Source of the DNA: an uncultured Alphaproteobacteria bacterium
GTDB taxonomy: Bacteria > Pseudomonadota > Alphaproteobacteria > Bin95
Length of the DNA: 48,903 bases
Direction of reading: 5' to 3'
NCBI GenBank assembly: GCA_937891825.1
Contig: CALAHN010000027.1
Span: 1-48,903, forward strand
Part shown: positions 41,405-47,177 of the stretch, piece after piece
How the letters are laid out: every line of letters begins with the position of its first letter
How positions within the stretch are numbered: the first letter of the stretch is position 1
The notes under the pieces: generated by a model
Databases searched by the model: none
Told to the model about the DNA's origin: nothing
The model's input: the letters and a program-made list of their open reading frames with translations, nothing else
Made by a program: the position numbers and the translations under genes

Positions 41405-41419
41405 CTGCTCGGAAGGGCG

Positions 41420-41524
41420 AGAGCATGGCGCGTCCGAGCGGACGCGCGGTCGATGCTCTATCTTACTGATAACGATCAACTTATCCTATTTTTGGCGATT
41501 CCGCCAAGAGCGGGGTTGATCTAG
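41420..41524 (+). repeat. two-hairpin intergenic repeat, copy R1
   Basis: About 105 nt. Hairpin A has GAGCAT (41421-41426) pairing with ATGCTC (41453-41458) around CGCGTCC/GGACGCG. A linker reading CTGATAACGATCAACTTATCC leads to hairpin B, with TTGGCG pairing with CGCCAA around ATTC, and the element ends TTGATCTAG. It aligns along its length with R2 (reverse complement) and R3. It fills the gap between the TAXI and TRAP permease genes and ends 13 nt before the permease ATG, so it is probably transcribed. RIME-like elements of Rhizobiales share the GAGCATG...CATGCTC theme, which is a resemblance only. Confidence 0.9.
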
Positions 41525-41536
41525 GGGCTCGTCGCC

Positions 41537-43495
41537 ATGGATCGCATTGAAGCGCCGAAGCCGTTTGTCATTCTGCCGTCCTGGCGGCAGGACATACGGC
41601 CCTTCCTTGCGGGGATGTCGCTGAAAAAGCTCGCTTCCCTCGTGGCTGTCGCCATGTCGATCTACCATCTCTACACCGGCTATTTCGGCGAGCCGGTGCC
41701 TGAGTTCCACCGCCCGACCCATTTGATGTTCGCGCTCGCCGTACTGTTCTTGGACCGGGACCGGCAAGCGGAAACCTGGTTGGGCCGGATCTGGAAATAT
41801 GTCTGGGACTGGTCGCTGATCGCGCTTCTGGTCGCCTCCTGCGGCTACCTGATCATGAGCGTCGACTATATTCAGACGCGGATGCAGTTCATCACGCCGC
41901 TCACCGATATCGAGCTCGTGCTGAGCGTCGGCCTGTTCGCCATCGTGCTGGAAGCGGCGCGCCGCACGACCGGCTGGGCGCTGGTCATCATCGTTCTGAC
42001 TTTTCTGGCGTTCGCGATCTGGGGGAGTTACCTGCCGTCGCCCTTCTGGCATTCCGGCAAATCCCTGGGCCAGGTCATGGACCTGATGTACCTGACCAAT
42101 CTCGGCATGCTCGGCTCCCCGCTTGGCGTCACGGCGAGCTACATCTTTCATTTCGTATTCTTCGGCGCGCTTCTGGTCGCCTCGGGCGCGGGCAGCTTCT
42201 TCACGGACGCCGCGAACGCCATCACAGGCCGCTACATCGGCGGCGCGGCCAAGACGGCGGTCGTCTCCAGCGCCTTCATGGCCTCGGTCTCCGGCACGGC
42301 CGCGGGCAATGTCGCGACCACCGGTTCATTCACGATCCCGGCGATGAAAGCGGCTGGCTACAAACCTGTCTTCGCCGCAGCCGTGGAAGCTGTCGCCTCG
42401 TCGGGCGGGCTGATGACGCCGCCGGTCCTGGGCGCGACGGCGTTCGTGATGGCCGAGATGACCGGCATCTCCTACACCGACATTGTGATCGCGGCGATCC
42501 TGCCGGCCATTCTCTATTATGTCGGCACGTTCATCACGGTCGACCTGGAAGCTCGCAAGCTCGGCCTGCCGGCGATGCGGGAAGCCGATATACCGCGGCT
42601 TTGGACCGTCTTGCGTCAACGCGGCTATCTCGTCCTGCCGCTCGTGACGCTGATCTGGTTCATCGTCGAGGGCTATACCCTGGTGCATGCGGCGATCTGG
42701 TCGATCATGGCGCTGGTATTTTTGCTGCTGATCTTCGATGCGGAGAACCGCCGCAATGTCCTGGCGGTCCTCTGGAAGGCGATGACGGACGCCCCCAGGA
42801 TGATGGCGCAGATCACGGTCGCGGTGACCATCGGCGGCATTCTGGTCGGCATCATCGTTCAGACCGGCATCGGCGTGCGGCTGAGCGCGATCATCCTGGA
42901 TATGGCGGGCGGCCAGCTCTTCAACGTCCTGCTGCTGACGATGTTCTTCTCGATCCTGCTCGGCATGGGCATGCCGGCGACTGGGGCTTATATCATCCTG
43001 GCGTTGTTGCTGGCGCCGGGGATGGTGCAGTTGGGCGTGCCGCTGCTGGCGGCGCACATGTTCATCTTCTATGGCGGGTGCAAATCCAACATCACGCCGC
43101 CGGTCGCGATCGCGGCGTTCGCCGCCGCGGCGATCGCCGGAACCGGGCCGATGCGAACGGCGATGAAGTCGTTCGTGATCGGCTTGCCGATCTACATCCT
43201 GCCGTTCATGTTCGTCTATTCGCCGGAATTGCTGGGCGTCGGCGGCTTCACGTTGGATAGCGCCTGGCGCTTCGTGACGGCGGCCTTCGGCATCGGCGCG
43301 CTTTCCATCGCCTGCGTCGGCTGGCTGCTGCGCCGGCTGCCCTGGGGCGAGCGGTTCGTGTGGTTCTGTATCTCGGGCATTTTCATTTTCCCGGGCCTGG
43401 TGTTTGATATCGCGGCGTTCAGTTCATTGGCGGCGATGACCGCCTGGGCGATCTGGCGGCGTCCGAAGCCCCTGGCGGCGCCGGAGCGCGCCTAG
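41537..43495 (+). CDS. TRAP transporter permease, fused small and large subunits
   Basis: Integral membrane protein of 652 residues, the fused DctQM (4TM/12TM) permease that pairs with TAXI receptors to import carboxylates with Na+. The large-subunit signature TAAGNVATTGSFTIPAMKAAGYKPVFAAAVEAVASSGGLMTPPVLGATAF is present, followed by further helices to about 640. The start has AGGGG (from the end of repeat R1) 9 nt upstream. The TAG stop lies inside the end of repeat R2. It follows the TAXI gene and precedes an LLM flavoprotein gene. Confidence 0.94.
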   Translation: MDRIEAPKPFVILPSWRQDIRPFLAGMSLKKLASLVAVAMSIYHLYTGYFGEPVPEFHRPTHLMFALAVLFLDRDRQAETWLGRIWKYVWDWSLIALLVASCGYLIMSVDYIQTRMQFITPLTDIELVLSVGLFAIVLEAARRTTGWALVIIVLTFLAFAIWGSYLPSPFWHSGKSLGQVMDLMYLTNLGMLGSPLGVTASYIFHFVFFGALLVASGAGSFFTDAANAITGRYIGGAAKTAVVSSAFMASVSGTAAGNVATTGSFTIPAMKAAGYKPVFAAAVEAVASSGGLMTPPVLGATAFVMAEMTGISYTDIVIAAILPAILYYVGTFITVDLEARKLGLPAMREADIPRLWTVLRQRGYLVLPLVTLIWFIVEGYTLVHAAIWSIMALVFLLLIFDAENRRNVLAVLWKAMTDAPRMMAQITVAVTIGGILVGIIVQTGIGVRLSAIILDMAGGQLFNVLLLTMFFSILLGMGMPATGAYIILALLLAPGMVQLGVPLLAAHMFIFYGGCKSNITPPVAIAAFAAAAIAGTGPMRTAMKSFVIGLPIYILPFMFVYSPELLGVGGFTLDSAWRFVTAAFGIGALSIACVGWLLRRLPWGERFVWFCISGIFIFPGLVFDIAAFSSLAAMTAWAIWRRPKPLAAPERA

Positions 43496-43600
43496 ATCAA
43501 CCCCGCTTTTGGCGGAATCGCTACAAGCGGGATAAGTTGATCGCTATCAATCAGGTAGAGCATGGCCTGCGCGCTCACCTGAGCGCGCAGGCCATGCTCG
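43492..43600 (-). repeat. two-hairpin intergenic repeat, copy R2 (inverted)
   Basis: Reverse-complement copy of R1/R3. On the plus strand it starts CTAGATCAACCCCGC, whose TAG (43493-43495) is the permease stop codon, and ends with CCATGCTC at 43592-43599. Hairpin B here pairs CCCGCTT with AAGCGGG around the conserved GCGATTCCGCC core. Hairpin A has a longer stem (GGCCTGCGCGCTCA with TGAGCGCGCAGGCC). It ends 22 nt before the LLM gene ATG. With R1 it brackets the permease gene in inverted orientation. Confidence 0.88.
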
Positions 43601-43621
43601 AAACAGGGGGAGATCCAATCC

Positions 43622-44701
43622 ATGCGCGTCGGCATTCTGTTTACGTCCCATCCCGACCCGGTGACAGAGCCCTATCCCCATCAAGCCATCCATGCCCGCA
43701 CGACCCGCGAGATCATCGAGGCGGAGGCGCTGGGCTTCGACGCTGTCTGGATCGCGGAACATCATTTCTCCAACCGGTACGGCATCCTGCCGGACCCGTT
43801 CAGCTATCTCGCATATCTTGCGGCCAAGACGACCCGCATCAAGCTTGGGGCCGCGGTGATGGTGGCGCCGCTGCATCATCCCATGCGCATCGTTGAGAAC
43901 GCCGCCCTCATCGACATCCTGAGCGAGGGCCGCTTTCAGCTTGGCCTGGGATCGGGCTACCGGCCCTATGAATTCGAGGGGCTCGGCGTCTCCTACGAGG
44001 AACGGCGGGAGATGCAATATGAGGCCATCCCGCTGATCCTGGACGGCTTTCACAAGAAGCAGGTGCATGCCGCCGGCAAGCACTACAATTTCGACGTCTC
44101 CGGCGACTATGAGGTGTTCCCGCAGCCCGTTCAGGTCCCGCATCCGCCGTTCTACATGGGCGCCGGCACCGAAAGCTCCATGCGGATCGCGGCCGAGAAC
44201 GGCTTCGGCCTGATGCAATCCTCATTGCCGAACCTCGCGACCATCGCGGAGCATGTCGCGTTCTACAAGCGGCACATGGCGAGCGCGCCCGCGCCTTATA
44301 ACCGGAACCCGGCCTTTGGCGAGGTCGATGTCGTCCGCATGGTCTATGTCGCCCCGACGGACGCGGCGGCGCGGGCCGAAAGCGAGGCCGGCATCGTCCG
44401 CCATATGAAGAGCTTCTTTTCCGGCGGCAATACCGGCGGATATCTGGGCGACATCGCGGAGAAGTCCGACGAAAGCCAGTTTGCCTATGACAGGCTGGTC
44501 GATTCGACGATCCTGCATGGCGCCCCGGATACGGTCATCCGGCAGATCAACGCCTTCCGGGACGCGGGCGCGACATCGCTGATGCTGCATTACCCGCCCT
44601 ATTACGGCGTTGAGCAGACCTTGAAGATGCTGCGCCTCTTTGCGGCCGAGGTTCTGCCGCACATCCAGGGGCCGGAGCCGAAAGCGGCGGCGGCCGAATA
44701 G
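43622..44701 (+). CDS. LLM-class flavin-dependent oxidoreductase
   Basis: Luciferase-like monooxygenase fold of 359 residues, using reduced flavin (FMNH2 or F420-like) and O2. It has VGILFTSHPDPV at the N-terminus, GFDAVWIAEHHFSNR (typical EHH segment), RFQLGLGSGYRPYEFEGLG, and PFYMGAGTESSMRIAAENGFGLM. GGGGGAG precedes the ATG at 43622. In this locus it may open or oxidise the imported acid. The stop lies inside an inverted GC-rich repeat. Substrate unknown. Confidence 0.91.
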   Translation: MRVGILFTSHPDPVTEPYPHQAIHARTTREIIEAEALGFDAVWIAEHHFSNRYGILPDPFSYLAYLAAKTTRIKLGAAVMVAPLHHPMRIVENAALIDILSEGRFQLGLGSGYRPYEFEGLGVSYEERREMQYEAIPLILDGFHKKQVHAAGKHYNFDVSGDYEVFPQPVQVPHPPFYMGAGTESSMRIAAENGFGLMQSSLPNLATIAEHVAFYKRHMASAPAPYNRNPAFGEVDVVRMVYVAPTDAAARAESEAGIVRHMKSFFSGGNTGGYLGDIAEKSDESQFAYDRLVDSTILHGAPDTVIRQINAFRDAGATSLMLHYPPYYGVEQTLKMLRLFAAEVLPHIQGPEPKAAAAE

Positions 44702-44712
44702 CCGCCGCCCGC
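44684..44712 (+). terminator. GC-rich hairpin at the end of the LLM gene
   Basis: GGCGGCGGC pairs with GCCGCCGCC around CGAATA, spanning the LLM stop codon (TAG, 44699-44701). No T-run follows, so it may slow or mark the end of transcripts from both sides of the convergent gene pair rather than act as a classic intrinsic terminator. Confidence 0.35.
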
Positions 44713-44732
44713 ATAGTCGATGACGTCGCCGC

Positions 44733-45059
44733 TCAGGGATGCGGGCCCCAGGGGGCGGGATGCAACAGCTTGACTTCCTGGGTCATGACCAGGGGGCGGA
44801 ATTTCGCGGCGAAGTCGTCCATGAAGGCGGGGCTGGCGAAGACCGCCGCCCAGTGGGCCCGCCGGTCGGCGTCGTCCTCGAATTTCCAGATATGCGTCAG
44901 TTGGTTGATCGTGCCGGTGTCGCCCTGGAAATAGCCCACGAGCTTCTTGTCGTGCCCGCCTGCCTGCAAGGCCGGAAAGCCGAATTTCTGATAGAGCTGG
45001 ACGGCTTCCGCCATCTTGCCCACGTAAAGGGTGTAGGTGCGCATTTCATAGATCGCCAT
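44733..45059 (-). CDS. NIPSNAP-family protein
   Basis: Small protein of 108 residues of the NIPSNAP (dimeric alpha/beta-barrel) family, beginning MAIYEMRTYTLYVGKMAEAVQLYQ and containing LTHIWKFEDDADRRAHWAAVFASPAF. Relatives often accompany catabolic clusters, possibly as ring- or chain-cleaving accessory enzymes; function here is unknown. AGGAG is about 8 nt upstream. It follows the 2-hydroxyacid dehydrogenase gene on the same strand (29 nt). Confidence 0.9.
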   Translation of the reverse strand: MAIYEMRTYTLYVGKMAEAVQLYQKFGFPALQAGGHDKKLVGYFQGDTGTINQLTHIWKFEDDADRRAHWAAVFASPAFMDDFAAKFRPLVMTQEVKLLHPAPWGPHP

Positions 45060-45088
45060 GCCGGCAACTCCTGTTGGGCGTCCGGATG

Positions 45089-46057
45089 CTACCGGTCCGC
45101 CAGTTCCTCAATGATCCAGAGGGGGGCTTCGCCGCGATTGACCCGTTGCACATTGTCGAAGGCGTTGCGAACGCGGGCCTTGTGGCTGTCGAAGGTCGGC
45201 CCGGCCATGTGCGCCGTCAGGGTCACGTTATCCAGGCGGAGGAGGGGGTTGTCGGGCGGCGTCGGCTCCTCGTCGAACACATCCAGGCCGGCGGCGGCGA
45301 TCTGGCGGCTTTCCAGCGCCTTGATCAGCGCCGCTTCGTCGACGACCGGCCCCCGGGCCGTGTTGATCAGGATGGCGCTGTCCTTCATCAACCCAAGTTC
45401 CTCGGCGCCGATCATGTGCCGGGTCGAGGCATTGAGCGGCACATGCAAGCTGATCAGGTCCGAGCTTGCGAGCAATTCCCGGAACAGCCGGAAGCGCAGC
45501 CCGAGCGCATCTTCCTCGGCTTCGCTGAGGCGGGCGATATCATAGTAGGTCACATGCATGCCGAAGGCGCGCGCCAGCCGGGCGGTCTTCTTGCCGATGC
45601 TGCCGAGGCCGACGATGCCAAGCGTCTTGTCGCGAAGCTCGCGCAGGTCCGGCGCCGTATTGCCGCGCCAGCGCCCGTTCGCCACGTCTTGATGCTGCTT
45701 CACCAACTGACGCGATACAGCCAGCATGAGCAAGAGCGCGTGTTCTGAAACCGCGGTCGAGTTGGCGCCGCCATTGTTGCAGATCGGCACGCCCGCGGCG
45801 CGCGCCGCTTCGATGTCGGCATTATTGTAGCCGGCGCTCAACAACTGGATCAGCTTGAGCTTTGGCCCGTCGAGGAAGAGTTGCCGGTCGACCAGCATGT
45901 CGACGAACCCGACCAGATAGTCGGCGTCCTTGATCGCTGCCTTGTATTCGGCGCTGCGCGCCTCGGCGATGGCCATGTCGTAGCCGGAGAGCGCCATCTC
46001 CCGGGCAAAATCGGCGGCGACGGGAAAATTGGTGACAAAGACGATTTTCGGCGGCAT
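45089..46057 (-). CDS. D-2-hydroxyacid dehydrogenase
   Basis: NAD-dependent D-2-hydroxyacid dehydrogenase of 322 residues. It has LLSAGYNNADIEAARAAG, NNGGANSTAVSEHALLLMLAVSR, the Rossmann motif VGLGSIG, catalytic Arg in NTARGPVVDEAALI and His in AHMAGPT, with the intervening DVFDEEPTPPDNPLL. It is the third family member in the window and precedes the NIPSNAP gene. TTTGATCTAGA lies 38 nt upstream of the start. It diverges from an SDR gene. Confidence 0.92.
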   Translation of the reverse strand: MPPKIVFVTNFPVAADFAREMALSGYDMAIAEARSAEYKAAIKDADYLVGFVDMLVDRQLFLDGPKLKLIQLLSAGYNNADIEAARAAGVPICNNGGANSTAVSEHALLLMLAVSRQLVKQHQDVANGRWRGNTAPDLRELRDKTLGIVGLGSIGKKTARLARAFGMHVTYYDIARLSEAEEDALGLRFRLFRELLASSDLISLHVPLNASTRHMIGAEELGLMKDSAILINTARGPVVDEAALIKALESRQIAAAGLDVFDEEPTPPDNPLLRLDNVTLTAHMAGPTFDSHKARVRNAFDNVQRVNRGEAPLWIIEELADR

Positions 46058-46187
46058 CTGGGATCTTTCATCGCTGCGGACTGCGACGGAAACTCTAGAT
46101 CAAAGCGCCCCGCGGCGGAAATGCCTGCGCGTGCCATGCTGCACAAGTTCATCTAGTCTGTCGGTAACCGCATCAGGAGGCGCGCCC

Positions 46188-47039
46188 ATGACCATGCTGA
46201 ACACATCCCGCAAGCCAGTCGCCGTCGTCATCGGCGCCACATCGAAATGGCAGGCCGACGGCCGCAATACGAAACTGGCCCACGGCCAGGCGATTTCCGA
46301 CGAAGACCTGCCGGTCGGCGTGCGATGGGGCATCGGCGGCGCGGTCGCGCAGAAGTTCGCCGCCGAAGGCTGCTTCGTCGTGCTGACGACGCGGACGGCC
46401 GCCAATGCGGCAGGCCTGGAAGCCGCGATCCGGGAACAGGGCGGCGACTGCATGACCGTCGAGCTCGATCTCGTCTCGGAGACGTCGATCCAGCAGGCGT
46501 TTCAGACAATCCGCGACAGGGCCGGCGACCCCGATGTGCTGATCTACAATGCCGGATACCTGGAAGGCCGCGACCTGCCGCCGGAAATGGAGCTGCTGGA
46601 ATTCATGCCGGTCGAACTGTTCGATACGGCCCAGCATATCGCGAGCCGCGGGCCGTTCCTGGTCGCGAAGGAAGTGCTGCCGGCGATGCGGAAGCGCGGC
46701 GCCGGGACGTTCCTGTTCTCCAACAATTCAAGCTCGCTGCGGGGCCGCAAGCGCGAGACCGGGCAATCGCTCTATTATCCCCGGGTGATGATGCGCACGC
46801 TCGCCCAGGCGCTGACGGAAGAATATTCCGTACACGGCATCCATGTGGCGAACGTCGTCATCGACGGCTTGATCGATTCTCCCGGCACGCGGGCCTTGAA
46901 GAAGGCGCAGGACAATCCGGAAAGCATCATGAACCCGGTGAAGATCGCCGAGGGTTTCTACTACCTGCATACCCAGGATCGCTCATGCTGGACGCACGAA
47001 CTTCAGATGACGCCGCACGTCACGAAGCCGAGTTATTAG
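46188..47039 (+). CDS. atypical SDR with interrupted glycine motif
   Basis: Protein of 283 residues of the SDR superfamily. The dinucleotide motif is split: VIGATSK (14-20) and RWGIGGAVAQKF (46-57) are separated by about 27 extra residues (WQADGRNTKLAHGQAI...). NAG in YNAGY is kept. The catalytic Tyr-Lys pair is missing: the region reads SLYYPRVMMR, so Tyr196/197 is followed by Arg203 and no Lys. ATG 46188 has AGGAGG 7 nt upstream. The TAG stop is the start of repeat R3. It may be a divergent reductase or a binding protein. Confidence 0.9.
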   Translation: MTMLNTSRKPVAVVIGATSKWQADGRNTKLAHGQAISDEDLPVGVRWGIGGAVAQKFAAEGCFVVLTTRTAANAAGLEAAIREQGGDCMTVELDLVSETSIQQAFQTIRDRAGDPDVLIYNAGYLEGRDLPPEMELLEFMPVELFDTAQHIASRGPFLVAKEVLPAMRKRGAGTFLFSNNSSSLRGRKRETGQSLYYPRVMMRTLAQALTEEYSVHGIHVANVVIDGLIDSPGTRALKKAQDNPESIMNPVKIAEGFYYLHTQDRSCWTHELQMTPHVTKPSY

Positions 47040-47132
47040 AGCATGGCGCGTCCCGGTGGACGCGCGGTCCATGCTCTACCTTATTGATAGCGATCAAATT
47101 ATCCAACCTTAGGCGATTCCGCCTAAGGTTGG
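47038..47132 (+). repeat. two-hairpin intergenic repeat, copy R3
   Basis: Same orientation as R1. It starts AGAGCATGG directly on the SDR stop codon (TAG 47037-47039) and ends TTTGATCTAG. Hairpin A pairs GAGCATGG with CCATGCTC around CGCGTCC/GGACGCG. Hairpin B is perfect: CCAACCTTAGGCG pairs with CGCCTAAGGTTGG over 13 bp around ATTC. It lies between two convergent genes (SDR and SIMPL). The sequence of hairpin B differs from R1 and R2 while the pairing is kept. Confidence 0.92.
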
Positions 47133-47177
47133 TTTGATCTAGAAGAGAGCGGCGCGCCCAAATGAGCGCGGCGTTCC

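Follow-up and report, generated by a model that had tools for sequence, protein, structure and literature searches.

Two-armed repeats of an uncultured alphaproteobacterium duplicate TA on insertion, often lie in stop codons, and were probably mobilised by IS630

Introduction

The RIMEs of rhizobia are 108 bp long and consist of two large palindromes. The CIR elements (CcrM-associated intergenic repeats) of Caulobacter and Brucella, by published description, are about 110 bp long, lie between genes in many copies in Alphaproteobacteria, have TA termini, and contain a linker that connects two inverted-repeat arms, one of which has GANTC at its tip (Chen & Shapiro, 2003, as described by Delihas, 2007; PMC2229807). 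The Bru-RS1/2 repeats of Brucella (103–106 bp) are described as palindromic and intergenic and are linked to the sequence YTAR; the IS5-family element IS711, which inserts into YTAR with duplication of TA, favors them as targets (PMC2266754). RUP of Streptococcus pneumoniae, an intergenic repeat of about 107 bp, was proposed to be a MITE driven by IS630-Spn1 (PMC2229807). Members of the IS630 family move by cut-and-paste into TA, which is duplicated (PMC2170065), and a preference of IS630 for CTAG is indicated in that paper and by the title of one of its references (Tenzen & Ohtsubo, 1991).

The repeats described here were found in a 48,903-nucleotide stretch (the window), which is one whole contig of the 4.3-Mb, 163-contig assembly of an uncultured alphaproteobacterium (G000). 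They form a genus-restricted family of the CIR/RIME type; the kind is already known, the family is new. New to this class are empty sites resolved to the base, the niche in stop codons, and a candidate mobiliser.

By description, the CIR elements agree with the repeats of G000 in size, two arms, linker, TA termini, intergenic position, high copy number, and alphaproteobacterial host, and the host examined here has CcrM; GANTC at one arm tip is common to CIR and to part of the G000 copies, a large subfamily of which lacks it. Bru-RS1/2 resemble them in size, palindromic nature, intergenic position, and the link to YTAR. RUP is alike in size, location, and proposed IS630 driver, but it has a single stem formed by pairing of its ends and belongs to another phylum.

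Results

The original prediction, made from the letters of the window, described three intergenic copies of a repeat with two linked hairpins that align end to end. Alignment bore out that the three copies are real, and their location stood, but their limits had to be corrected:

41419–41523, + strand: copy 1, a member of subfamily III; the TA on the left has become GA, the one on the right is at 41522–41523; GATTC at the arm B tip at 41497–41501
43493–43601, − strand (inverted): copy 2, subfamily III; arm A 4 bp longer; GAATC (arm B tip) at 43515–43519
47037–47141, + strand: copy 3, subfamily I; the best preserved of the window copies

The end given earlier for copy 3 (47132) was 9 bases too short, and the outermost TA on the arm A side is decayed in copies 1 and 2. 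Folding of the three copies surpassed that of dinucleotide shuffles (z = −4.7, −9.0, and −8.2, respectively), in agreement with two linked hairpins. A covariance model built from 29 copies detected exactly three copies in the window (113, 106, and 133 bits), as had been claimed, and the one extra match proved to be a reverse-strand self-echo of the copies. The genome-wide search with this model yielded 138 matches in 4.3 Mb, of which about 58 scored at least 80 bits; decayed copies are undercounted in these numbers because only 150 of 2,917 first-look candidates were scored. The suggestion of an active or recently spread element gained support from these dozens of copies, from nearest neighbors up to 99% identical, and from sites filled in one sister genome and empty in the other (see below). 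The crowding of three copies in less than 6 kb, in contrast, does not reflect a local burst: the three are not local duplicates, since copy 3 is of another subfamily than copies 1 and 2. The family as a whole is large and consists of mobile elements of ~105 bp that code for no product. Rfam gave no match at the gathering score, the sub-threshold matches being chance ones; neither the repeat nor the 36–48.9 kb stretch of the window had a match in the plasmid collection (BLAST with the repeat covered 72,556 plasmids including pSymB), and the repeat pattern was absent from the viral contigs searched.

The plan of each copy is the same: arm A (a 42-bp palindrome), a linker, arm B (a bulged palindrome), and TA at both ends. 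Typically, the sequence runs Y-TA-GAGCATGG...CCATGCTCTA through the 42 bp of arm A, continues with the linker YCTTATTGATAGC, and ends with GATCAAA-TTAT-CCAACCTTAGGCG ATTC CGCC...GGTTTGATC-TA-R, which is arm B with its 4-nt bulge. The parts of copy 3 are the following:

47037–47078, + strand: arm A, palindrome TAGAGCATGG...CCATGCTCTA
47079–47091, + strand: linker CCTTATTGATAGC, of which ATTGAT is also kept in the G001 and G003 families (see below)
47092–47141, + strand: arm B, bulged palindrome GATCAAA-TTAT-CCAACCTTAGGCG ATTC CGCCTAAGGTTGG-TTTGATCTA
47115–47119, + strand: GATTC, the GANTC site at the arm B tip

Compensatory changes are present in arm B, where 13 of 34 pairs occur in more than one Watson–Crick type. 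Since G·T and A·C mismatches are about equally common in the stems (38 vs 33), there is no sign of an RNA fold on one strand, and RNA-level selection of this kind was rejected. Palindromic DNA suffices to account for the stems. In one copy (L079:701–809) the arm B tip is inverted, with GGCGGAATCGCC in place of GGCGATTCCGCC, which looks like a flip of the hairpin tip. In five others (L100:701–809, L104:701–838, L105:701–785, L101:1296–1382, and L109:701–818) the outer half of arm A is missing or replaced and arm B is intact, so the truncation looks one-sided.

De novo repeat finding in pSymB of S. meliloti yielded two dispersed families, 107–120 bp long, with two palindromic arms, a linker, and the ends TAGAGC...GCTCTA or TAGAGC...GATCTA. 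From their length and layout we infer that these are the published RIMEs (Osteras, 1995). The earlier remark that hairpin A recalls RIME was right in kind, as the pSymB repeats have the same plan and ends, but the view that the second hairpin and the linker are not part of RIME fails, because both the pSymB repeats and the published CIR have two arms and a linker. The similarity of the pSymB repeats to those of G000, however, is restricted to the ends. Another pSymB repeat, CTCATCCCTGTGC..., is of a different plan and was seen in 6 copies in 450 kb (L236:24888–25020 and five places in L237–L240).

A pattern of 24 fixed bases, searched against 84,980 species (from which the window's own record was possibly excluded), matched only G001 and G003, which are MAGs of uncultured Alphaproteobacteria of the same genus (CALLKY and CAJXVF, respectively). 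The stems of their sister family are entirely different, and the ends, the linker ATTGAT, and the TTATCC bulge are common with the G000 family; the arm B tip is GATTC. The repeats of G006, which belongs to another genus, represent a third version of the plan, in which the tip is GACTC or GATTC. Within each genome the sequence types are homogeneous and peculiar to it. One gene ends in an element both in G000 (L101:701–809) and in G001 (L075:1501–1608), each copy being of its own genome's type. At another site, common to G003 (L066:1501–1608) and G001 (L072:1501–1608) within 3.1 kb of 88% identity, the elements are ~97% alike and stand in opposite orientations, either by independent insertion into one CTAG or by inversion in place.

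In G000, the left TA is preceded by Y in 47 of 57 copies and the right TA is followed by R in 56 of 57; the respective flanks in G001 and G003 are C (15/16) and R (16/16). The window genome itself yielded no two-sided empty site, and direct comparison of the window with its relatives showed a gene order too broken for such sites, therefore the sister genomes were used. The flanks of G001 copies were joined on one TA and matched to G003, where three sites (L165/L267, L076/L268, and L062/L270) were found empty, each with a single CTAG, that is, one TA, in matches of 87–92% identity over ~240 bp. The fourth pair (L074/L269) also gave a continuous match in G003, but its target bases were changed. 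The empty sites and the flanking bases show that insertion occurs at YTAR, mostly CTAG, with duplication of TA, and it is highly probable that the repeat is a TA-duplicating mobile element.

Two other routes of spread bear on this result. Recombination or gene conversion among old insertions, rather than current transposition, could have been the main source of spread and similarity, which would fit the genome-specific sequence types, kept even at the site filled in both genomes (L101 and L075), and the opposite orientations at the L066/L072 site; the clean empty sites with TA duplication, however, make this very unlikely. Alternatively, the repeat could be REP-like, its single-stranded hairpins being the substrate of a Y1 (RAYT/TnpA_REP) transposase, since it seems to resemble REP doublets in having two linked palindromes and a tetranucleotide at their foot. 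Duplication of TA is unexpected for Y1 enzymes, and a Y1/RAYT mobiliser was rejected as no Y1_Tnp domain was found in G000 or seven relatives; this possibility is largely refuted and hardly deserves credence.

In 39 of 57 copies (15 left and 26 right ends), the neighboring gene has the terminal TAG of the element as its stop codon, as counted with a simple codon-usage gene caller. The examples in the window are:

41537–43495, + strand: flanking gene, DctM component of a TRAP transporter (PF06808)
43493–43495, + strand: TAG at one end of copy 2, with which this DctM-type gene stops
46188–47039, + strand: flanking gene ending in copy 3
47037–47039, + strand: TAG at one end of copy 3, with which the gene at 46188–47039 stops; the G001 ortholog stops at the same codon

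The gene at copy 3 ends with ...VTKPSY-TAG and its G001 ortholog with ...STKPSY-TAG. With 41 C-termini joined into a chimeric query, orthologs were found in G001, G003, and G006, and for 21 of 31 genes the ortholog has its stop at the same codon; compared with the remaining ones the G000 protein is slightly shorter or longer. At L094:701–809 the element provides the stop of a GroEL-like gene 25 residues before that of its G001 relative, and the protein, 55% identical over the stretch compared, is without the GGM tail of the latter. In 5 of 16 G001/G003 copies, each end lies in frame with a preceding open frame of at least 140 codons, the two frames being convergent. YTAR occurs in the window at 17 sites inside genes, 10 at stops, and 20 intergenic ones. 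Compared with the non-coding YTAR sites (10/30 at stops), the 39 of 57 copies mean a significant excess (binomial p = 7e-8), which becomes smaller when divergent intergenic sites are omitted from the null (10/20, p = 0.004). Much of the enrichment arises because YTAR is rare inside GC-rich genes, hence the choice of target by itself directs insertions to the ends of genes. We are confident that insertion happens very often exactly inside stop codons and leaves the gene product intact, since the inward TAG at both ends restores the TAA or TAG stop that was hit. Tolerance rather than benefit appears to explain this location, and a further benefit is possible. No earlier report of stop-codon insertion by such repeats was found in the open-access PMC literature, and priority is uncertain.

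GANTC, the CcrM methylation site, is present at the arm B tip in 31 of 57 G000 copies, which means 22/30, 9/12, and 0/15 by subfamily; the last is subfamily II, nearly all copies of which have GTTTC. It was also found in 13 of 16 G001/G003 copies and in most G006 copies read, and the window's genome encodes CcrM (356 aa; match to 6pbd, E = 1.8e-151). The element might be functional and under selection, with mobility being secondary, as a CcrM-controlled site or as a portable gene 3′-end, in which the stop codon is combined with hairpins that protect the mRNA, stall ribosomes, or terminate transcription. The copies do lie where genes end (context convergent in 31, tandem in 19, and divergent in 3 in G000), the stems covary, GANTC recurs at the tip in each of three groups of genomes that differ in their stems, and in E. 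coli translation is lowered by REPs situated within 15 nt of a stop codon (PMC12306157). However, 26 of 57 copies lack GANTC, among them all 15 copies of subfamily II, the mismatches are unbiased as to strand, and orthologous sites exist without copies, which together render selection for function an unlikely explanation. Since the GANTC-less subfamily II has multiplied, its members reaching 99% identity, GANTC is not needed for spread.

TAGAGC forms the ends of the IS630s of G001 and G003, most copies of which have Y in front of the TA or R behind it. In G001, the C-terminus of an IS630 was found in ~60 contig-end fragments (contig ends L287 and L290–L302) ending in ...GAATCTGCTCTA, followed by R in 11 of 13 copies read, and this high-copy IS630-family element probably broke the G001 assembly. 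Another IS630 end, TAGAGCGGATTTGG, is common in G003, and at L070 of G001 one IS630 end directly adjoins a repeat end. Annotated plasmid IS630s of Azospirillum, Roseomonas, and Sphingobium (~1,059 bp) have CTAGAGC at both ends, the end in Roseomonas being TAGAGCATGATC. The repeats and the IS630 ends have 6–9 bp in common, including TA; the internal terminal-repeat sequence is not common. The IS630 DDE_3 domain was not detected in G000 at E = 0.001, where only a fragment of 37% identity was found, and no intact IS630 was found in that assembly; IS630 is present as fragments in G001 and as IS630-like ends in G003. Collapsed repeats may be absent from the 163-contig G000 assembly. As the TAGAGC-type ends and the target of the repeats fit IS630, an IS630 transposase is probably their mobiliser.

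Instead, the same kind of MITE could depend on an IS711-like transposase of the IS5 family, as IS711 also duplicates TA in YTAR and favors Bru-RS; DUF4096 (IS5-type) genes do occur, a broken one in G000 and two in G001. Nevertheless, no TAGAGC-type inverted ends surround these genes, whereas IS630s of the same bacterial group carry them, and G003 has repeats, yet gave no DUF4096 match, so an IS711-like mobiliser seems improbable.

Discussion

Taken as a whole, the reading of the repeats as CIR/RIME-type MITEs that insert at YTAR and in stop codons and are moved by IS630 is a reasonably probable one. In this reading, the element is a non-autonomous, MITE-like, non-coding unit of ~105 bp of the CIR/RIME class, on the TAGAGC-type ends of which an IS630 (Tc1/mariner-type) transposase, the most likely mobiliser, would act in trans. 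It inserts at Y-TA-R, mostly CTAG, with duplication of TA, and, as both ends read TAG inward, insertion into the TA of a TAA or TAG stop restores the stop codon. Where two convergent genes stop in one CTAG, each gene regains its stop. Such insertions would be tolerated and may thereby accumulate.

Because both ends carry the inward-reading TAG, stop codons could be safe harbors for two-arm repeats. CIR, RIME, and probably Bru-RS might all have been mobilised by IS630, with stop codons, especially the CTAG of convergent genes, as such harbors, but this extension is only tentative. The GANTC-less subfamily argues against CcrM methylation as a requirement for spread. Together with the empty sites and the niche in stop codons, the IS630-like ends provide a testable hypothesis on what moves an old, unexplained class of repeats.
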